Positions 23,013-31,857 of a stretch of 64,000 nt of DNA are shown here, piece after piece; the stretch's first letter is position 1, and each line of letters starts with the position of its first letter. The DNA is taken from positions 992,001-1,056,000 of the forward strand of contig NZ_CP048279.1 of assembly GCF_010365305.1 (NCBI RefSeq), given 5' to 3'. Origin of the DNA: Staphylococcus sp. MI 10-1553. GTDB lineage: Bacteria > Bacillota > Bacilli > Staphylococcales > Staphylococcaceae. Position numbers and translations under genes: made by a program. Below the pieces are notes generated by a model. The model was given only the letters and a program-made list of their open reading frames with translations. It was not told the origin of the DNA and did not search any database.

Positions 23013-23065
23013 AAAAAAGCCCCTCCATCACGCAATCATAACGAACGCGTTGGAAGGGTTTTTTA
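23013..23065. terminator. Bidirectional terminator left of the rbs remnant
   Basis: AAAAAAGCCCCTCCATCACGC pairs with GCGTTGGAAGGGTTTTTT with small mismatches. It serves the minus-strand rbs genes and stops leftward transcription. Confidence 0.75.
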
Positions 23066-23074
23066 AGATTGATT

Positions 23075-23477
23075 TAAAATGTCACGTTGGATTCTAAAAT
23101 AATATTAGAAAACGGGGTGATTTTACCTGTGCGGATATTACCTTTATTCAATGGTTGTCTCAAATATGCTGTCATTTCTGAGTGCGGAATAAACGCAATA
23201 TCAACATCTTGATCAATCAATGCTTTGATTTGTTTCAATTGTGTCGGGTTATGTGTTTTAATTTCTTCTGCTAGATAGTTTTTTGGATTTTTAATTCTTC
23301 TAACACTGTTGCTAATACATCGATAAAGAGCGGCAATTCTTTGGTTACAGCTAAATCGATTCTTCTTTCATCGTTAGAAATAGGTATCCCTGCATCATTG
23401 ACGGTCAATAATTAGAAATGCTCCATTGTTGCAATGACTTGAGAAACGTGGCTGTTAAGTAAAGCTGCTTTTTTCAT
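23075..23477 (-). pseudogene. rbsD: D-ribose pyranase RbsD, broken
   Basis: On the minus strand the sequence starts MKKAALLNSHVSQVIATMEHF and then hits TAA where the family has Asp in the stretch LLTVNDAG. A one-base loss after KIQK shifts the frame before [13 protein letters not shown]. Downstream it reads [14 protein letters not shown] and ends [10 protein letters not shown], the RbsD C-terminus. Two independent lesions make this a pseudogene. A GGTGAAGAG site remains before the ATG, and the gene follows rbsU by 17 bases. Confidence 0.85.
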
Positions 23478-23494
23478 TCTCTTCACCCTGTCTA

Positions 23495-24376
23495 TTATCT
23501 AATAAATACAGTTACTGTTGCTGCTGCTAAAATCAAAATTAAACCCATGATTGTGATAAACATTTCTTTTGAAGTTTTGCGCTGATTTAAGAAATAAATT
23601 CCTGTTAATGTAGCTAAAACAACTGAAGTTTGAGATAAGATGAAACCTGTTGCTAAACCATTCATATCAGGTTGCGCTGAGATTAAATATGTCAATGCCG
23701 CAAAAGCAAAGAAGAAACCTGAAATGATTTGTAACCAAGTGACTTTCTTGTTGAATGGATTATCTTTTTTTATTGTCATTAACCCGTAAATGACGGCAGC
23801 AAGTACCATTCCAATGGCTTGTGGTAAAAATGCAACTTCACCACCAATGTCAGTCGCTTGTGGTGCAGCAGAGTAGAGCCAATATCCAAATTCACCGATT
23901 AATAGGATAATGACTGCTTTTCTCAAGTGACTACTTTTTGTTTCTTGCGCATCTTCACTCCAAACAGTCATCCATGCCCCAATTAAAATTACGACTAAAG
24001 CTGCAAAACCAATCAGTTTATTTGTAAGACTTGGCCAGTTACCTAATGCGAATACACCCCAAAGTGATGCACCGAGTAATTGGAAAGCCGTTGTGATAGG
24101 CATTGCACGAGAAGAACCGATATATTCAAACGCTTTGAAAGTCATAATTTGGCCAAAACACCAACCGGCTCCTGATAGCAAAGCGAAAAATAAATCCATC
24201 CCTGTTGGAAATTGACGCCCTGAAAACATAAAAAATGCAATCGCGAAAATCAGTGTCCCAACAGTAGCGCCGATGATCTGATTGACTGGTTTACCTCCAA
24301 TTTTTGATGCAATTGTAGGAAAAAGACCCCAACCAATGAGCGGTCCTAAACCAATTAATAGTGCGACCATGTTCAT
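23495..24376 (-). CDS. rbsU: Ribose uptake protein RbsU (GRP-family transporter)
   Basis: A 293-aa membrane protein with ten hydrophobic segments, of the glucose/ribose porter (drug/metabolite transporter) family. MVALLIGLGPLIGWG, GGKPVNQIIGATVGT, TTAFQLLGASLWGVF and SQTSVVLATLTGIYFL are nearly those of the S. aureus RbsU. It imports ribose with rbsK and rbsD in S. aureus. Here rbsD is dead and no rbsK is present in the window, so ribose catabolism from this locus looks lost. The start is the ATG at 24376, eight bases after GAGGAG. Confidence 0.88.
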   Translation of the reverse strand: MNMVALLIGLGPLIGWGLFPTIASKIGGKPVNQIIGATVGTLIFAIAFFMFSGRQFPTGMDLFFALLSGAGWCFGQIMTFKAFEYIGSSRAMPITTAFQLLGASLWGVFALGNWPSLTNKLIGFAALVVILIGAWMTVWSEDAQETKSSHLRKAVIILLIGEFGYWLYSAAPQATDIGGEVAFLPQAIGMVLAAVIYGLMTIKKDNPFNKKVTWLQIISGFFFAFAALTYLISAQPDMNGLATGFILSQTSVVLATLTGIYFLNQRKTSKEMFITIMGLILILAAATVTVFIR

Positions 24377-24667
24377 TATTTACACTCCTCTATTTCTATT
24401 AAATATTTTGTCTTTCATTAACAAGTTCACGTTTTAAAATATACCATTTCTATATCAATATATAAACTAACATTTACTAAAATTTAAAACTATTATTTGG
24501 GAAATTAAAAAATTGAAACAAACTTGTCACACAGATCAGTAAAGCAGAGGGGTTAGGATGGTACAATGAATTAACGTGTTAAAGATGAACCAAAAGTCAA
24601 TCTAAAGAGTGGTTTCTAAGCGATATTGTCTCCTCTTTGAAACTTGTTTCTAAATTCATAGTATTGC

Positions 24668-24696
24668 TTGAAAAATAGAACATAACCGCATACAAT
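24668..24696 (+). promoter_or_regulatory. Promoter of the sialic acid regulator gene
   Basis: TTGAAA (24668-24673), a 17-bp spacer and TACAAT (24691-24696). The predicted transcription start falls within the cre site that follows. Confidence 0.65.
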
Positions 24697-24702
24697 TATT
24701 TG

Positions 24703-24716
24703 TGTAAACGCTTACA
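24703..24716. promoter_or_regulatory. CcpA catabolite-responsive element (cre)
   Basis: TGTAAACGCTTACA matches the cre consensus at every informative position. It lies at about +1 to +13 of the predicted transcript, so bound CcpA would block transcription when a preferred sugar is present. Confidence 0.78.
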
Positions 24717-24733
24717 ATAGCGAGGTGTGAACA

Positions 24734-25546
24734 ATGAGATTTTATAAAGTACTTGTTCCTATGATTGAATCAAATCTTGAAAATATGACAACGACAGAAA
24801 AAGAGGTAGCACATTTTTTTCTGAAACAAGTTACTGTCGAGGATTTATCGTCTGAGATGTTTAGCCACCAACTGCATGTGTCTAAAGCAACATTAACACG
24901 ATTTGCGAAAAAGTGTGGCTTCACGGGTTTTAGAGAATTTTTGTTCCATTATAGAGAAATGATGCGTGAAAAAGAGGATATTCTTGCATACAAAGACTTA
25001 ACACAAAAAGTTCTGTTTGATTATGAAGAGATGCTCCGTAAAAATTATTCTATTCTCAATGAAAGTCAGTTAGAACGTATTAAAGAGATGATTAATCAAG
25101 CTGAACGTGTGTATCTTTATGGGAAGGGAAGTTCGGCACTGGCATTAAAAGAAATGAAAATGAGATTTATGAGACTCGGTATAATTTGTGAAGTGATTGA
25201 AGATAATGACATGTTCGTATGGAATAATTTATTAGTAGATACGTCATGTCTCGTGATTGGTGCTTCAATTTCAGGCAAAACGGAGGCGGTACTTACTGCA
25301 TTGGCATCAGCTCACAAGAGGGGTGCTAGCACAGTACTTATGACGACAAAAAATTTTACAGAGCATGAGTTAATGTGTGATGAAATATTACTTTTGGCTG
25401 CGAACAAAAATTTAGCATACGGAAATATAATTTCACCACAATTTCCAATATTACTCATGACAGATTGTTTGTTTTCCTACTATTTGGAGGACCCTCATAG
25501 ACGGATGTATTACGATCAAACTATTATAGATAAAGAAGAGCCGTAA
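24734..25546 (+). CDS. RpiR-family regulator of sialic acid genes (NanR-like)
   Basis: A 270-aa protein with an N-terminal helix-turn-helix (HVSKATLTRFAKKCGFTGFREFLFHY, about residues 45-72) and a C-terminal SIS domain beginning VYLYGKGSSALALKEMKMRF (about 135). SIS domains bind phosphosugars; the S. aureus NanR is of this family and answers to ManNAc-6-P. Adjacent to, and reading into, nanA, so it probably controls the nan genes. A cre site overlaps its promoter. Whether it represses or activates is not visible. Confidence 0.8.
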   Translation: MRFYKVLVPMIESNLENMTTTEKEVAHFFLKQVTVEDLSSEMFSHQLHVSKATLTRFAKKCGFTGFREFLFHYREMMREKEDILAYKDLTQKVLFDYEEMLRKNYSILNESQLERIKEMINQAERVYLYGKGSSALALKEMKMRFMRLGIICEVIEDNDMFVWNNLLVDTSCLVIGASISGKTEAVLTALASAHKRGASTVLMTTKNFTEHELMCDEILLLAANKNLAYGNIISPQFPILLMTDCLFSYYLEDPHRRMYYDQTIIDKEEP

Positions 25547-25660
25547 TCTCGTACATATTGTCCAAAAAAGGGAATTCACACCGTTTTATAAGCGTTGCAC
25601 AATAATGATATAAATAATGCAATGAGTTTTGCATCAATGATTGAGAAGAGGAGAATGAAT

Positions 25661-26584
25661 ATGAGAGATTTAAGTCGATATCAAGGCATTATTCCGGCAT
25701 TTTACGCATGCTACGACGAAAAAGGAGAAGTTAGTCAAGAACGTGTACGCCAACAAGTGCAATATTTGATTGATAAAGGCGTAAAAGGACTTTATGTGAA
25801 TGGTTCTTCTGGGGAATGTATTTACTTAACTACTGAAGAGCGTAAACAGATTATTGAGGCAGTGATGGATGTCGCGAAAGGTAAAATAACAGTGATTAAC
25901 CATGTTGCTTGTAACAACACAAAAGAGAGTACGATTTTAGCAGCACATTCTGAACAATTGGGTGTCGATGCGATTGCGGCCATTCCACCGATTTACTTTA
26001 AATTACCAGAATATTCAATCGAAAAATATTGGAATACGATCAGTGAAGCGGCACCGAATACCGATTTTGTGATATACAATATTCCACAATTAGCGGGTGT
26101 CGCGTTGACGAATAAGTTGTATGCGGCGATGCGTAAAAACCCACGTGTGATTGGTGTGAAAAACTCTTCTATGCCTGTACAAGATATTCAAACATTTGCG
26201 GCGGCAGCGGGTGAAGACTATATCGTATTCAACGGTCCAGATGAACAATTTGTCGGTGGTCGAACGATGGGAGCGCAAGCAGGCATTGGTGGTACATATG
26301 GTGTGATGCCAGACTTGTTTGTGAAATTGAACCAACTCATTATTGATCTAGATATGGCGCAAGCACAAGCACTTCAGTTTGCTATTAATGACATCATTTC
26401 AAAATTAGTATCTGGACATGGCAATATGTACGCAGTCGCGAAAGAGGTGCTCAGAATCAACGAAAATGTAGATTTAGGATCAGTACGTGCACCGTTAGAA
26501 CCATTGACAGAGGAAGATAAAGTTATTGCACAACAAACAGCTGACATGATTGTTGCGACAAGAAAACAATTTCTCGTGTCTTAG
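25661..26584 (+). CDS. nanA: N-acetylneuraminate lyase (NanA, streptococcal type)
   Basis: Cleaves Neu5Ac to ManNAc and pyruvate. The 307-aa DHDPS/NAL-family protein has YVNGSSGECIYL (phosphate/carboxylate loop), the catalytic Tyr in VIYNIPQLAG (about 137) and the Schiff-base Lys in VIGVKNSSM (about 164). Its wording (IPAFYACYDEKG, HVACNNTKES, FNGPDEQF..GGIGGTYGVMP) resembles lactic streptococcal lyases rather than the usual S. aureus NanA, as far as I recall. The start is ATG 25661, seven bases after AAGAGGAG; the longer frame lacks a ribosome site. Confidence 0.87.
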   Translation: MRDLSRYQGIIPAFYACYDEKGEVSQERVRQQVQYLIDKGVKGLYVNGSSGECIYLTTEERKQIIEAVMDVAKGKITVINHVACNNTKESTILAAHSEQLGVDAIAAIPPIYFKLPEYSIEKYWNTISEAAPNTDFVIYNIPQLAGVALTNKLYAAMRKNPRVIGVKNSSMPVQDIQTFAAAAGEDYIVFNGPDEQFVGGRTMGAQAGIGGTYGVMPDLFVKLNQLIIDLDMAQAQALQFAINDIISKLVSGHGNMYAVAKEVLRINENVDLGSVRAPLEPLTEEDKVIAQQTADMIVATRKQFLVS

Positions 26585-26611
26585 TGAACGCATAATAAAG
26601 GAGTGTTGATG

Positions 26612-28153
26612 ATGAAGACAACTGGTTTTACTTTAGTTGATTTATTGGTGTTAATTGTTTACTTACTCGCTGTTTTAGTAGCGGGGCTCTACTTCTCGAA
26701 AAAAGAAATGTCAGGGAAAGAATTCTTTAAAGGGGATGGGTCGGTCCCTTGGTATGTCACGTCAGTATCAATTTTTGCGACGATGTTAAGTCCGATTTCG
26801 TTTTTAGGGCTTGCAGGGAACTCTTATGCAGGCAGTTGGATTTTATGGTTTGCGCAATTAGGGATGGTCATTGCGATTCCATTAGCGATTAAATATGTAT
26901 TGCCAATCTTTGCACGTATGGACATTGATACAGCTTACGATTATCTTGAACGCCGTTTCGAAGCGAAATCGTTACGTGTCATTTCCGCTTTACTGTTTAT
27001 CGTGTATCAACTCGGTCGTATGTCGATTATCATGTATTTACCATCAGTAGGTTTAGCGAAATTAACAGGCATCGATATTAATATTTTAATTATTTTAATG
27101 GGTGTAATCGCGATTGTTTACTCTTATACAGGTGGTTTGAAATCTGTACTTTGGACGGACTTTATTCAAGGTGTCATCTTATCTGGTGGGGCATTGATCG
27201 CATTGTTCGTATTGATTAAAGATATCGATGGTGGTATGGGCGCGATTGCAGAACAATTGGCTCACGGAAAGTTTATTGCACCAACAGAAAAATGGTTTGA
27301 TCCGAACATTTTATCAGGCTCGATTTTCTTAATTATTTTCGGTTCTGGTTTAACCATTTTCTCATCTTATGCCTCTTCTCAAGACTTAGTACAACGTTTT
27401 ACAACGACACAAAATATTAAAAAGTTAAATAAAATGTTGTTTACAAATGGTGTCCTATCATTAGGTGTAGCAACAGTATTCTATTTAATTGGAACAGGCT
27501 TATATGTGTTTTATCAACTTCAAAATGTGAGTGAAGCAACAAAAGCGATTCCGCGTGACCAAATTTTTATTTACTTTATCGCATATCAGTTACCGGTTGG
27601 GGTGACAGGCATTATTTTAGCCGCGATTTATGCAGCAGCACAGTCAACAATTTCGACAGGTTTAAACTCAGTTGCGACATCATGGACTTTAGATATTCAA
27701 GAAGTTGTAGCGAAAGAAATGTCTGATAAAGTGCGTACACGAATTGCTCAAATCGTATCGTTACTTGTCGGTATTTTCTCAATTGTCGTTGCGATCGTGA
27801 TGGCACATTCTGATATTAAATCAGCATACGAATGGTTTAACGGCTTTATGGGTCTCGTACTTGGTTTACTTGGTGGTATTTTCATTTTAGGATTTGTCAC
27901 TAAAAAAGCGAATAAACAAGGGGCTTATGCGGCATTAATTGTTGCGACAATTGTGATGGTGTGCATTAAATACGTGTTACCTCCAGAAGCGGTGAACTAC
28001 TGGGCATATTCATTCATTTCAATCAGTGTGTCTTTAGTGGTGGGCTACGTTGTGTCATTATTAACTGGAAATAAAGCATCAGCACCACAATTTACAACGA
28101 TTCATGATATCCCAGAAATTCTTGCTGATAAGAGTTGGGAAAAACGTCATTAA
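26612..28153 (+). CDS. Sodium:solute symporter, sialic acid transporter candidate
   Basis: A 513-aa SSS-family protein with about 13 membrane helices. ATMLSPISFLGLAGNSYAGSW, YDYLERRFEAKSLR and IYAAAQSTISTGLNSVATSW (the Na2-site Ser/Thr pair) are typical of SiaT/NanT-type sialic acid symporters such as S. aureus NanT. It follows nanA and precedes nanQ, so import of Neu5Ac or 2,7-anhydro-Neu5Ac is likely; which one cannot be told by eye. Start at ATG 26612 (or 26609) after AAAGGAG. Confidence 0.84.
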   Translation: MKTTGFTLVDLLVLIVYLLAVLVAGLYFSKKEMSGKEFFKGDGSVPWYVTSVSIFATMLSPISFLGLAGNSYAGSWILWFAQLGMVIAIPLAIKYVLPIFARMDIDTAYDYLERRFEAKSLRVISALLFIVYQLGRMSIIMYLPSVGLAKLTGIDINILIILMGVIAIVYSYTGGLKSVLWTDFIQGVILSGGALIALFVLIKDIDGGMGAIAEQLAHGKFIAPTEKWFDPNILSGSIFLIIFGSGLTIFSSYASSQDLVQRFTTTQNIKKLNKMLFTNGVLSLGVATVFYLIGTGLYVFYQLQNVSEATKAIPRDQIFIYFIAYQLPVGVTGIILAAIYAAAQSTISTGLNSVATSWTLDIQEVVAKEMSDKVRTRIAQIVSLLVGIFSIVVAIVMAHSDIKSAYEWFNGFMGLVLGLLGGIFILGFVTKKANKQGAYAALIVATIVMVCIKYVLPPEAVNYWAYSFISISVSLVVGYVVSLLTGNKASAPQFTTIHDIPEILADKSWEKRH

Positions 28154-28172
28154 TTAAGGAGAGGTGTTCGGA

Positions 28173-28622
28173 ATGATTGTTGCAGAACGCGAAGATTTGA
28201 AAAGATATATTGCAGTGAATCCTCATTTTAGTAAAGTAGTTGATTTTCTTCAGAATACGGATTTGACAAAGCTTGAACTCGGCAAAGTGGAGATTGATGG
28301 CGACAATGTGTTTGCGAATTGTATGTCCTATGTGGCAGATGGTGTTCCAGGACAACAATTTGAAAATCATCAAAAGTACATCGATATTCATTTAGTGCTT
28401 GAAAATACGGAAAAAATTGCGGTAACCTCACCACAATTTGTTGAACAGACGGCAGCTTATGATGAGGCGGATGATTTTGCGTTATTTAAAGGTGAACAAT
28501 ATCAATTAGTGGATATGACACCGTCGAATGTGTTGATTACATTTGAAGAAGATTTGCATCAACCGAAAATAAGCAATAACGATCAAACTGTCAAAAAACT
28601 TGTCATTAAAGTTTTGAACTAA
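28173..28622 (+). CDS. nanQ: N-acetylneuraminate anomerase-type protein (NanQ/YhcH/YjgK)
   Basis: A 149-aa beta-barrel protein of the YhcH family. ENHQKYIDIHLVLEN and the later MTPSNVLITFEEDLHQP carry the metal-binding His/Glu residues. E. coli NanQ speeds the alpha/beta interconversion of sialic acid, which matters because transport and NanA use different anomers. The start is ATG 28173 after AAGGAGAGG. Part of the nan operon; the next gene's ribosome site is directly behind its stop. Confidence 0.83.
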   Translation: MIVAEREDLKRYIAVNPHFSKVVDFLQNTDLTKLELGKVEIDGDNVFANCMSYVADGVPGQQFENHQKYIDIHLVLENTEKIAVTSPQFVEQTAAYDEADDFALFKGEQYQLVDMTPSNVLITFEEDLHQPKISNNDQTVKKLVIKVLN

Positions 28623-28638
28623 AGAGGAGGAAAATATT

Positions 28639-30726
28639 ATTAAAGCATTCAAACTATGTATTTATATACTGTCGTTATTGTTAATAATTGGACTCGTTAC
28701 TCCAAATGCTTTCGCTCAAGTTATCGGACAGGAAAATGAAAATGGATCAAATGCGCTAGTTTTCGAAAGAGATAATATTCAGTTAACAGGTAATGGTATG
28801 AATGTAACATCTAGTGTCTTAAATAAATTAACTGGACCTGATTTTACAGTGATTATCAAATATCATCAATTGAACACTGATGGGATTCAAGCTTTATTTG
28901 GTATTTCGAATTCAAAAAAAGGTAATCAAAATAGTTATTTAGATATGTATGTAAGAGAAAATGGAGAACTAGGTATGGAAGCGCGTGACTCTTATACAAA
29001 AACAAATCATTTGGTATCAAGACCTGCTTCTGTATGGGGGAAATACAAAAATAAACCGGCAACAAATACAGTTGCATTTGTATCAAATCATCATAACAAA
29101 ACTTATTCTTTATTTTCTAATGGGTATAAAATAGAAGAAAAGCAGATAAATCATTTTTTACAGTTTTCAGATATCAAGGGGTTAGACACATTTGTAATTG
29201 GTGGAGTGAATAGAGAAGGAAAAAATAGTTTTGGATTTAACGGTACAATTGAAAATATTAAAATCTTCAGTAATGCACTAGATGAAAATACAATAAAAAG
29301 CATGACAAAAAATGACATCACTCAACGGTTGGTTTATCAAGCAGATGATGAAACGCACTCAAATTATTTTAGAATACCATCTTTATATACATTGAGTAAT
29401 GGTAGAGTTTTATCAAGTATTGACGCACGCTACGGCGGTACTCATGACTTTTTGAATAAAATTAATATTGCAACAAGTTATAGTGATGATGATGGTAACA
29501 CATGGACTAAACCAAAGCTTACTTTATCTTTTGATGATTTTGCATCTGTATCTATGGAGTGGCCTCGTGATCCGGATAAACGTGATTGGCAAATTAGTGG
29601 CGGTGCGATATATATAGATTCGGTTTTATTGGAAAAAAGCAATAAACAGGTTATGCTTTTTGCTGATGTTATGCCTGCAGCGGTTAGTTTTAGGGATGCT
29701 GTAAGAAATGATTCAGGATTTAAAAAGATTAACGGAAAATACTATCTTAAATTGAAAAAAAGTGGAGAAAATGAGTATCAATATTCAGTTCGTGAAAATG
29801 GAATAATTTATGATGATAGAACGAATAAACCTACTGAGTATGCTTTAGATAAAAACTTTGCAATAAGTAAAAACAATGAAAAATTAAAGGTAGAGCAATA
29901 TTCAGCAAAAGTTATGAATGGACAAAAGACTGAATTTAAAAATGGTAAGTTTGTTGATATGAATGTTTTTTATAAAGACGCTATATTCAAAGTAGAACCT
30001 ACCAATTTTATAGCCTATTCTGTTAGCGATAACTTTGGAACAACTTGGTCTAAACCTACACTTATTCCACCATTACTTGGGGAAAAACATAATTTTCCAT
30101 ATTTAGGGCCTGGTCGAGGAATTGTAGAGCATAGTAAGGGGAGGATTCTAATTCCTTCTTATACTGGTAAGGATTCTGTGTTCATCTATAGTGATGATAA
30201 TGGAAGAACTTGGAATACTAAAGTTATTCCTCTTCCTTCTAACTGGTCAGCAGAGGCACAATTAATAGAATTGAAACCAGGTGTTTTACAAGCTTATATG
30301 AGAACGAATAATGGGAAAATTGCATTCATTACTAGTAAAGATGCGGGTAATAATTGGAGTGATCCGGAGTATTTAGATTTTATTTCTAATCCTAATTACG
30401 GAACAGAACTATCTATTATTAATTATAGTCAGAAAATAGATGGTAAAAACGCCGTAATTCTTAGTACACCAAATTCAAAAAAAGGTAGAAGAAATGGTCA
30501 AATTTGGATTGGTTTAATAGGAGAAAATAACAAGATAGAGTGGCGCTATCACCATGATGTCGACTATAGTAAATACGGCTTTTCATACTCAACGTTAACA
30601 GAACTGCCTAATCATGATGTAGGATTGATGTATGAAAAATTCGACTCTTGGTCAAGAAATGAATTGCATATTAAAAATGTAGTTCCATACGTCAGTTATA
30701 AAATTGAAGATTTGAAAAATAATTAG
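28639..30726 (+). CDS. nanB: Secreted GH33 sialidase (NanB-like, candidate intramolecular trans-sialidase) with AUU start
   Basis: Predicted 695 aa. A signal peptide (MKAFKLCIYILSLLL..PNAFA, cleavage before QVIGQ) is followed by a CBM40/LamG-like lectin domain (about 40-215), then the sialidase propeller: FRIP at 244-247 and Asp boxes at about 280 (SYSDDDGNTW), 461 (SVSDNFGTTW), 517 (YSDDNGRTW) and 566 (SKDAGNNW). Catalytic candidates are Glu539 and Tyr650. The inserted domain (about 325-455, with YSVRENGIIYDD) matches pneumococcal NanB/NanC. No LPXTG anchor, so it is probably released. No in-frame ATG precedes the signal peptide: an ATT at 28639 lies eight bases after GAGGAGG. A TTG at 28678 would remove the charged n-region. 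The gene is more AT-rich than its neighbours. Confidence 0.87.
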   Translation: MKAFKLCIYILSLLLIIGLVTPNAFAQVIGQENENGSNALVFERDNIQLTGNGMNVTSSVLNKLTGPDFTVIIKYHQLNTDGIQALFGISNSKKGNQNSYLDMYVRENGELGMEARDSYTKTNHLVSRPASVWGKYKNKPATNTVAFVSNHHNKTYSLFSNGYKIEEKQINHFLQFSDIKGLDTFVIGGVNREGKNSFGFNGTIENIKIFSNALDENTIKSMTKNDITQRLVYQADDETHSNYFRIPSLYTLSNGRVLSSIDARYGGTHDFLNKINIATSYSDDDGNTWTKPKLTLSFDDFASVSMEWPRDPDKRDWQISGGAIYIDSVLLEKSNKQVMLFADVMPAAVSFRDAVRNDSGFKKINGKYYLKLKKSGENEYQYSVRENGIIYDDRTNKPTEYALDKNFAISKNNEKLKVEQYSAKVMNGQKTEFKNGKFVDMNVFYKDAIFKVEPTNFIAYSVSDNFGTTWSKPTLIPPLLGEKHNFPYLGPGRGIVEHSKGRILIPSYTGKDSVFIYSDDNGRTWNTKVIPLPSNWSAEAQLIELKPGVLQAYMRTNNGKIAFITSKDAGNNWSDPEYLDFISNPNYGTELSIINYSQKIDGKNAVILSTPNSKKGRRNGQIWIGLIGENNKIEWRYHHDVDYSKYGFSYSTLTELPNHDVGLMYEKFDSWSRNELHIKNVVPYVSYKIEDLKNN

Positions 30727-30744
30727 AAAGAAAGTGAAAAAATA

Positions 30745-31857
30745 ATGATTAGATATGGTATTGTTGGCACAGGATATTTTGGGGCGGATTTAGCAAGATC
30801 TATTAATAATATAGATGATGCAAAGGTTACTGCAGTTTTTGATCCACATAATGCAGAAGCAGTCGCAAATGAATTAAATGCAGAAGTTTCCGATAGTCTA
30901 AATGCGCTAGTTAGTAGGAAAGATGTGGACTGTGTCATTGTAGCATCACCGAGCTATTTACATCGTGAACCTGTTGTCAAGGCTGCTGAACATGGCAAAC
31001 ATGTTTTTTGTGAAAAACCAATTGCATTAAATTTTGAAGATTGTAAAGCTATGGTTGATGCATGTAAAGAACATAACGTTACATTTATGGCAGGACATAT
31101 TATGAACTTCTTTAATGGGGTTCATCATGCAAAGAACTTGATAAATGAAGGTAAAATTGGAGAAGTTTTGTATTGTCACGCTGCACGTACTGGTTGGGAA
31201 GAGTCGCAGCCGACTGTCTCATGGAAAAAATTACGCGATCAGTCTGGTGGTCATCTGTATCATCACATTCATGAACTGGATTGCATTCAATTTATTATGG
31301 GCGGTCTACCCGAAAAAGTAACAATGGTGGGTGGCAATGTGTATCATCAAGGGGAACAGTTTGGTGATGAAGATGATATGTTACTCATCAATTTAGAATA
31401 CGAAGATCAACGTTATGCAGTTTTAGAATATGGCAATGCGTTTCGTTGGGGCGAGCATTATGTTTTGATTGAAGGGACATTAGGTGCCATCAAATTAGAC
31501 CTCTATCATACAGGTGGAACATTACGTGTGAAAGGTGAAGGCGAGTCTCATTTCCTCATTCATGAAACACAACAAGAAGATCACGAACGGACAGCCATTT
31601 ACACAGGACGAGGTATGGATGGTGCAATCGCATATGGTAAACCCGGTGTGAGAACGCCACAATGGCTACAAACGTGTATTGATAAAGAAATGGCTTATTT
31701 GCACCGTATATTACAGGGTGGTGCAATAGATGAATCTTATGTGAAGTTAACGAATGGTGTGGCAGCGCTTGAATCGATTGCGACAGCTGATGCGTGTACG
31801 TTATCACTGAAAGAAGATCGCAAAGTCAAACTTTCAGAAATTGTAGCTCCAAAATAA
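30745..31857 (+). CDS. nanOx: Gfo/Idh/MocA oxidoreductase, NanOx/YjhC-like
   Basis: A 370-aa NAD-dependent oxidoreductase: Rossmann loop GIVGTGYFGADLA at the N-terminus, FCEKPIALN at about 92, then MAGHIMNFFNGVHHAKNL, GGHLYHHIHELDCIQF and FGDEDDML. These match my recollection of E. coli YjhC closely, far better than generic inositol dehydrogenases. YjhC and R. gnavus NanOx convert 2,7-anhydro-Neu5Ac to Neu5Ac through a transient oxidation. A GH33 enzyme of the NanB type lies just upstream, which supports the same role here. Weak ribosome site (GAAAGTGA). Codon use is AT-rich in the first third, then like the host. Confidence 0.82.
   Translation: MIRYGIVGTGYFGADLARSINNIDDAKVTAVFDPHNAEAVANELNAEVSDSLNALVSRKDVDCVIVASPSYLHREPVVKAAEHGKHVFCEKPIALNFEDCKAMVDACKEHNVTFMAGHIMNFFNGVHHAKNLINEGKIGEVLYCHAARTGWEESQPTVSWKKLRDQSGGHLYHHIHELDCIQFIMGGLPEKVTMVGGNVYHQGEQFGDEDDMLLINLEYEDQRYAVLEYGNAFRWGEHYVLIEGTLGAIKLDLYHTGGTLRVKGEGESHFLIHETQQEDHERTAIYTGRGMDGAIAYGKPGVRTPQWLQTCIDKEMAYLHRILQGGAIDESYVKLTNGVAALESIATADACTLSLKEDRKVKLSEIVAPK

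Follow-up and report, generated by a model that had tools for sequence, protein, structure and literature searches.

The primary product of the sialidase NanC is 2,3-dehydro-N-acetylneuraminic acid (Neu5Ac2en), and the cited sections of the structural report link the hydrophobic loop at position 396 to its formation: exchange of NanC Phe396 for the NanB residue (Phe396Asn) gave a mixture of Neu5Ac2en and N-acetylneuraminic acid (Neu5Ac) (PMC4646021). The oxidoreductase YjhC acts on both 2,7-anhydro-Neu5Ac (2,7-AN) and Neu5Ac2en, the conversion of the latter being irreversible, and the same account notes that the two YjhC homologues of Streptococcus neighbour different sialidases, B in one case and C in the other (PMC7315737). 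In RgNanOx of Ruminococcus gnavus, each mutation of K93, K163, H175, H176 or H178 abolished activity, as far as the cited text goes (PMC7535918). For Staphylococcus lutrae, the portion of the report cited here describes growth on Neu5Ac and Neu5Ac2en, and not on 2,7-AN, with the symporter SiaX paired with NanOx, and presents Neu5Ac2en metabolism as studied in vitro only (PMC10955332). Here we describe a six-gene sialic acid operon in a 64,000-nucleotide stretch (the window; G000:C1:992,001-1,056,000) of the complete 2,896,994-base genome of Staphylococcus sp. MI 10-1553. An earlier reading of the letters alone (the sequence-only reading) recognized this operon and assigned it to 2,7-AN. All six genes are present by open reading frame (ORF), Pfam and NCBIfam evidence. 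The 2,7-AN label is not supported, in view of the NanC active-site set, the NanC clade and the SiaX-type transporter found here. The operon probably makes and uses Neu5Ac2en instead, a reading that follows from the type of its sialidase, the type of its transporter, the association between the two across loci and the ability of YjhC to convert Neu5Ac2en.

Against solved structures the sialidase scores 1064.8 bits with NanC (residues 23-682), to which it is about two-thirds identical, versus 717 bits with NanB; its Pfam content is a Sialidase N-terminal domain (CBM40-type) together with BNR_2. We numbered residues by P0006, an unnamed homologue of 740 residues that agrees with all of the NanC positions taken from PMC4646021. 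The window protein carries the residue of this NanC reference at 19 of the 20 positions read (290, 309, 315, 316, 371, 372, 390, 394-397, 553, 582, 584, 600, 632, 662, 695 and 716), the sole mismatch being Asp for Glu at 398. The NanC-type set is thus complete: the Arg triad, Asp315, Glu584/Tyr695, the Phe316/Phe396 pocket, Ser582 and the Trp716/Tyr632 stack. At the three positions where pneumococcal NanB has Ser316, Asn396 and Thr582, the window sialidase has Phe, Phe and Ser. In a tree of 46 sialidases (13 of 59 rows were omitted as near-copies or fragments) its nearest neighbour is S. pseudintermedius P0002 (support 100/99), the S. schleiferi/coagulans-type gene joins next (100/100), and these three belong to a 13-row clade that includes streptococcal NanC (100/100). 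The first product of the window sialidase is likely to be Neu5Ac2en, given the NanC-type residues and the NanC clade. The sequence-only reading had placed this protein in the NanB/NanC class of CBM40-GH33 sialidases; the class and the domain plan hold, and what it missed is that the protein is specifically NanC-like rather than NanB-like. P0002, the best match from another organism in the protein search (89%), also has the NanC residue set and is probably the nanB gene scored in surveys of S. pseudintermedius, which in the parts cited count it among virulence or adhesion genes of variable presence and name no product for it (PMC7593597, PMC8102687, PMC11505346).

The transporter points the same way. 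The window SSS-family symporter is 90.5% identical to a protein at the same chromosomal site in S. lutrae (G041), 65% identical to a C. butyricum SSS protein and only 34% identical to the SSS protein of the genome's second nan locus, which lies beside nanA and a ROK kinase gene. The S. lutrae protein is probably the published SiaX, since its SSS, NanQ and NanOx genes follow the order suggested by the published locus tags; this equivalence is one of gene order. We accordingly class the window symporter as a SiaX orthologue from its identity, its locus and its distinctness from the second SSS protein, a judgement made by identity and locus, and predict that it imports Neu5Ac2en.

Moreover, sialidase type and transporter type go together across loci. 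An alignment-based scan of genome contigs gave 41 loci (a scan with a single protein found none), of which 34 were kept after dropping L046 and L074, which are records of two of the staphylococcal loci, and L077-L081, which hold sialidase fragments only; with seven staphylococcal genes added, 41 sialidase genes were compared. Six of these are uninformative (two orphans, two with SiaX and no NanOx, one on a contig that ends before the transporter and one with neither seen), leaving 35 loci with a sialidase, NanOx and a recognised transporter. The Phe316/Phe396/Ser582 triad is found in 8/8 SiaX loci, 0/24 SAT2 loci and 0/3 NanG loci. In the SAT2- and NanG-linked sialidases, residue 316 is Ser or Ala; residue 396 is usually Asn or Ser, with Phe in three of them and Gly in one; and residue 582 is Thr except for Phe in three. 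In L066, L069 and L072 both 396 and 582 are Phe, and the product of these sialidases is not predictable from the NanC/NanB contrast. Two loci from metagenome-assembled genomes, L075 and L076, combine SiaX with a distant sialidase that lacks the Trp716/Tyr632 stack, with no NanOx seen, and are possibly plain hydrolytic Neu5Ac systems that use the same transporter family.

The oxidoreductase is a NanOx, as had been proposed from its motifs. Its best solved structures are 6z3b/6z3c, of which we take 6z3b to be RgNanOx, at 547 bits and YjhC (6o15) at 510 bits, the next Gfo/Idh/MocA structure scoring 85 bits; its Pfam domain is GFO_IDH_MocA. All five RgNanOx catalytic positions are kept, as the EKP lysine 91, the SWKK lysine 161 and the HHIH histidines 173, 174 and 176. 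In a 40-row tree made up of NanOx proteins, RgNanOx included and no outside family in it, the window protein falls in a supported 15-row clade (100/99) made up of ten SiaX-linked proteins, an S. danieliae protein whose transporter lies off the contig, the protein of L081 (no SiaX seen at that locus), P0243 of S. pseudintermedius and two proteins without gene context, P0249 and P0252. The SAT2- and NanG-linked proteins, among them RgNanOx, lie outside this clade. The window NanOx is predicted to convert 2,7-AN or Neu5Ac2en to Neu5Ac with NAD+, and since YjhC uses both compounds the presence of NanOx alone does not decide the substrate.

The best structures for the lyase are 6rab (439 bits; entry name, putative N-acetylneuraminate lyase) and 6rb7 (436 bits), which we take to be R. 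gnavus NanA, other lyases scoring at most about 155 bits; its true start is probably downstream of the listed TTG. The operon contains no nanE or nanK, as the sequence-only reading had remarked in expecting N-acetylmannosamine (ManNAc) to be handled elsewhere. Indeed, elsewhere in the genome we found NanE at 2,557,610, beside NagB (2,556,870) and a phosphotransferase system gene (glucose type by best hit), ROK kinases at 2,165,775 (beside the second nanA and SSS genes) and 1,553,683, and NagA at 265,575, and these genes plausibly deal with ManNAc.

Taken together, these assignments suggest a pathway in which products, transport specificity, regulation and ecology are predicted from sequence. 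The secreted sialidase would cut α2-3-linked sialic acid mainly to Neu5Ac2en, with slow hydration to Neu5Ac; SiaX would import both compounds and NanOx, with NAD+, would return Neu5Ac2en to Neu5Ac. NanQ would speed opening of the anomer, the lyase would split Neu5Ac into ManNAc and pyruvate, and the ROK kinase, NanE, NagA and NagB encoded elsewhere would finish ManNAc. The RpiR-family regulator would act, probably as an activator, at a GAAACNNGTTTC palindrome upstream of the promoter, with CcpA repressing at a cre-like site. The operon itself would be the resident scavenger locus of this staphylococcal group, into which a sialidase-bearing segment recombined.

Several observations weigh against the Neu5Ac2en assignment. 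SiaX also takes Neu5Ac in the cited part of the S. lutrae report, so the operon may instead serve a plain Neu5Ac pathway. The 396 loop of the window sialidase has Ala where the NanC reference and S. pseudintermedius P0002 carry Gly. Phe396 alone was considered as a NanC marker and rejected, the three distant SAT2 loci named above having the same residue among different neighbours. The transporter labels, available for 31 of the 46 rows of the sialidase tree (15 are without one), need just four changes on it, near to one historical split, and several of the streptococcal loci are near-duplicates; with so few changes the pairing reflects whole clades and has few independent events behind it. Three proteins fall short of the strict family models: the lyase scores 198.7 against 382 for the NCBIfam nanA equivalog TIGR00683, NanQ scores 95.9 against 160 bits for the anomerase equivalog NF040884 (the wider family TIGR00022 is matched), and the ROK kinase at 2,165,775 scores 88.9 against the NanK cut-off of 450 bits. 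Finally, no ATG, GTG or TTG lies at ribosome-binding-site distance from the Shine-Dalgarno sequence after nanQ.

This last point bears on whether the sialidase is made at all. The first canonical start in frame is an internal TTG at 28,678, the start of the listed ORF, which would cut into the signal peptide and lose its charged beginning, a defect that the sequence-only reading passed over in calling the operon complete; the six genes are there, and it is the abnormal translation start of the sialidase that makes the word doubtful. The frame upstream of 28,678 codes for a full signal peptide from about 28639, resembling those of P0002 and P0003, both complete. The sialidase may use a rare start codon, be translated weakly or not be expressed, and with no canonical start codon at the ribosome-binding site its expression in the window strain is uncertain. 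It is conceivable, though on balance unlikely, that the operon of this strain only scavenges, the sialidase being poorly translated or inactive and SiaX and NanOx taking Neu5Ac2en or Neu5Ac that other cells, or the second NanC-like sialidase of the genome, set free. The missing start argues for this, as does the retention of the operon without a sialidase in four of the five related genomes; against it, the sialidase frame is otherwise uninterrupted up to its stop and retains the catalytic residues, and rare start codons are usable.

The comparison with relatives points to a mosaic origin for the sialidase-bearing part. Six staphylococcal genomes, the window's included, have the operon in the cell-division region, with ylmG on one side and ylmH on the other, and a sialidase is part of it only in the window and in G058, a genome of S. 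schleiferi/coagulans type. Across a genus set of 84 genomes, again with the window's own, the sialidase is found in five (E up to 0.001) and NanOx in seven (E up to 1e-60). From rpiR to nanQ the window is 84-92.5% identical to G022, G037 and G019, which have no counterpart of the sialidase. G037 encodes a protein 99.8% identical to one named S. intermedius, and G058 one that is 99.2% identical to a protein named S. schleiferi subsp. coagulans; G022 is, by eye, probably S. delphini, its NanOx sharing the odd length of P0244. In nanOx, a sliding profile against these three gives 68-76.5% over the first 500 columns and 85-90% after, while the three are mutually 84.5-98% identical over the same 500 columns. 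Over the first 300 columns, three S. intermedius group genomes are 84.8-94.6% alike and the window alone differs, at 68.4-73.1%. Max-chi-square values of 50-58 were reached in 0/1000 permutations in each of the three comparisons of the window with a relative; in control pairs without a break, permutations were as high in 169/1000 (G022-G037), 358/1000 (G022-G019) and 441/1000 (G041-G058). The picture is not a clean one, as the far 3′ end of nanOx is flagged too (G022-G041, 4/1000; window-G041 and window-G058, 0/1000, with breaks near column 957-960). Variation between the two groups seems greater at this end, and leaves the 5′ break inside the S. intermedius group unexplained. The G+C content at 28-30 kb, 0.325, is the lowest 2-kb step in 1-54 kb (54-56 kb is lower, at 0.272).

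The sialidase and the first 0.2-0.5 kb of nanOx thus appear to be a recombinant segment swapped in from a related bacterium. NanOx P0243 of S. pseudintermedius is 92% identical to the window protein in the N-terminal part and 82% over the rest, which makes a sialidase-bearing operon of this type a plausible donor. An ancestral sialidase, lost in the sialidase-free relatives and retained rather than recently imported in the window, is suggested by the streptococcal NanC loci, where a sialidase lies in the same order between nanQ and nanOx. This account is distinctly unlikely in view of the P0243 profile and of the 5′ part of nanOx, where only the window is off-type although rpiR-nanQ and the 3′ part of nanOx are not; two control pairs of relatives also show no break, although three pairs that include S. 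lutrae or G058 break at the 3′ end. The nanQ-nanOx gaps of the sialidase-free relatives, checked for a sialidase remnant, are too short to decide.

That the operon serves 2,7-AN, with the sialidase an intramolecular trans-sialidase and the SSS protein importing its product, is very unlikely: NanOx/YjhC does act on 2,7-AN (PMC7535918, PMC7315737), use of 2,7-AN by the SSS-linked locus of pneumococcus TIGR4 was proposed from gene context in the cited part of PMC7535918, and the domain plan is common to the window sialidase and NanB, but the residues and clade of the sialidase are those of NanC, S. lutrae SiaX gave no growth on 2,7-AN in the account cited, and the 27 non-triad sialidases with NanOx and a transporter sit with SAT2 (24) or NanG (3) and none with SiaX.

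Two further records touch on the relatives. In G052, labelled S. pseudintermedius LMG 22219, the sialidase locus is of NanB type, with NanG and NanOx beside the sialidase (L016/L074); neither a NanC-type sialidase, a window-type NanOx nor a window-type operon was found in this genome, so that either S. pseudintermedius varies in this respect or the record carries a wrong name. G058 has, besides its operon, a NanOx-NanG-sialidase locus (L013/L012) with an internal stop in the oxidoreductase and another in the sialidase; in its SiaX-NanC-NanOx operon those genes are open, and RpiR is present as an ORF of 202 residues only.

The six genes of the window operon are open on the + strand over 24,734-31,857, and their coordinates are collected below with those of the associated features. 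Upstream of the operon lies the divergent rbsU (23,495-24,376), adjoined on the minus strand by what is, by eye, a decayed ribose-utilisation gene (rbsD-like) at 23050-23480, open in short pieces only.

Features of the operon in window coordinates, with the evidence for each
Feature	Position	Strand	Basis
Candidate RpiR operator, palindrome GAAACTTGTTTC	24639-24650	+	conservation
Putative sigma-70-like promoter, TTGAAA-17-TACAAT	24668-24696	+	10/12 match; position, conservation
Perfect cre-like palindrome TGTAAACGCTTACA, just after the -10 box	24703-24716	+	only site in window; mean 0.03 expected
RpiR-family regulator (HTH_6 + SIS)	24734-25546	+	Pfam; 62-64% identity to regulators of five streptococcal NanC loci
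N-acetylneuraminate lyase (NanA-like; DHDPS), 6rab/6rb7 subclass	25595-26584	+	Pfam, structure matches
SSS-family symporter (SSF), SiaX type; predicted Neu5Ac/Neu5Ac2en uptake	26603-28153	+	90.5% to S. lutrae protein
NanQ/YhcH-type protein, sialic acid anomerase family	28164-28622	+	DUF386 1.5e-39
Apparent recombinant segment: sialidase and 5′ nanOx	28620-31240	+	right breakpoint between about 30.92 and 31.24 kb
NanC-type CBM40-GH33 sialidase with inserted domain	28639-30726 (ORF finder start 28678)	+	NanC score, active-site columns, clade
NanOx/YjhC-type Gfo/Idh/MocA oxidoreductase, mosaic gene	30745-31857	+	547 bits to 6z3b; conserved catalytic residues

The palindrome pattern has one match in 64 kb, with 0.11 expected, and at least one match in 10/100 shuffles of the window, so that its weight rests on conservation: it stands as GAAACNNGTTTC upstream of rpiR in 6/6 aligned staphylococcal operons and, by eye, in 5/5 streptococcal NanC loci printed, of which the strict operator pattern caught one. 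A longer form, GAAACNNGTTTCTA, has two copies in the 2.9 Mb genome, the second adjoining an ABC ATPase gene and a transposase-helper fragment (named by eye) and not sialic acid genes. The promoter scan gave 42 sites against a shuffle mean of 39.3, about equal, and the evidence for this promoter is its position and conservation. Of the six staphylococcal operons, four have a perfect cre-like site, matched to a consensus that we assume for cre, whereas the site of G037 differs by one change and that of S. lutrae is degenerate; in the five streptococcal loci a TGTAAACGTTTAC stretch comes next, by eye, and the strict cre pattern caught 0/5. From this arrangement we infer that the palindrome is the RpiR operator, with the regulator activating from upstream of the -35 box, and that CcpA exerts control at the cre-like site.

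The genome holds other sialic acid loci. A second NanC-like sialidase at 72,650-74,641 (L010, 9498-11651) is 63% identical to that of the window and 92.9% to an S. delphini protein and has Ser at 396; no sialic acid genes were found in the 19 kb around it. The region at 2.8477-2.8519 Mb (L031, 9713-13917) encodes an ABC transporter of SAT2 type, the second NanOx of the genome (54-55%) and a regulator of AraC type, with no sialidase in the 18 kb around them; the SAT2 binding protein occurs in one of the 84 genus-set genomes (E up to 1e-60), that of the window. With a second sialidase and a SAT2/NanOx locus, the organism may handle both dehydrated sialic acids by separate routes.

The Neu5Ac2en reading changes the target compound: the sialidase of this animal-associated group, probably the 'nanB' of S. 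pseudintermedius, should yield a sialidase inhibitor and not 2,7-AN or free sialic acid. Private access to sialic acid that competitors cannot use, which the sequence-only reading expected of the operon, is a prediction, and the locus brings together in little space the sialidase, the transporter, NanOx, the regulator and a putative operator with which Neu5Ac2en could be examined as a private nutrient. We tentatively propose that NanC, SiaX and NanOx could form a dedicated Neu5Ac2en loop, whose product inhibits the hydrolytic sialidases of others and is edible to NanOx carriers only, and which in these staphylococci may have been born when homologous recombination placed the sialidase, with the start of its own nanOx, in a resident scavenger operon; sialidase chemistry and transporter might then be inherited as matched pairs, NanC with SiaX for Neu5Ac2en and NanB/NanH with SAT2 or NanG for 2,7-AN. 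The NanC/SiaX versus NanB/SAT2/NanG pairing is a testable rule, and the mosaic operon would be a scavenger locus turned possible producer through recombination. A literature search over titles and abstract openings found no paper that describes, for the S. intermedius group, this operon or what it produces.

Among known systems, the R. gnavus cluster (RgNanH-SAT2-RgNanOx) shares with the window operon the logic of a dehydrated sialic acid and NanOx, and the lyase subclass, but differs, in the description cited, in its 2,7-AN product and its ABC transporter SAT2 (PMC7535918). The siaX-nanOx locus described for S. lutrae (PMC10955332), taken here to be that of G041, lies at the same site, with an SSS protein 90.5% and a NanOx 82% identical to those of the window; it has no sialidase, and S. 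lutrae carries a NanB-type sialidase at a separate NanG-NanOx locus. The streptococcal nanC loci (S. mitis, S. infantis, S. pseudopneumoniae, S. halichoeri and Streptococcus sp.), with the order RpiR-NanE-NanA-SiaX-NanQ-NanC-NanOx, are collinear with the window, with identities of 79-84% for SSS, 83-84% for NanOx and 64-67% for the sialidase, and have by eye the same palindrome and cre-like site upstream. The nanC locus of pneumococcus TIGR4 is presumably also among the closest systems, and the resemblance to a pneumococcal nan locus noted from the letters alone holds. The window operon differs from these loci in being without nanE, in its site between ylmG and ylmH and in a sialidase that is absent from four of the five other staphylococcal operons; the function of every part of it is already known from relatives, and the streptococcal NanC loci have the same plan.

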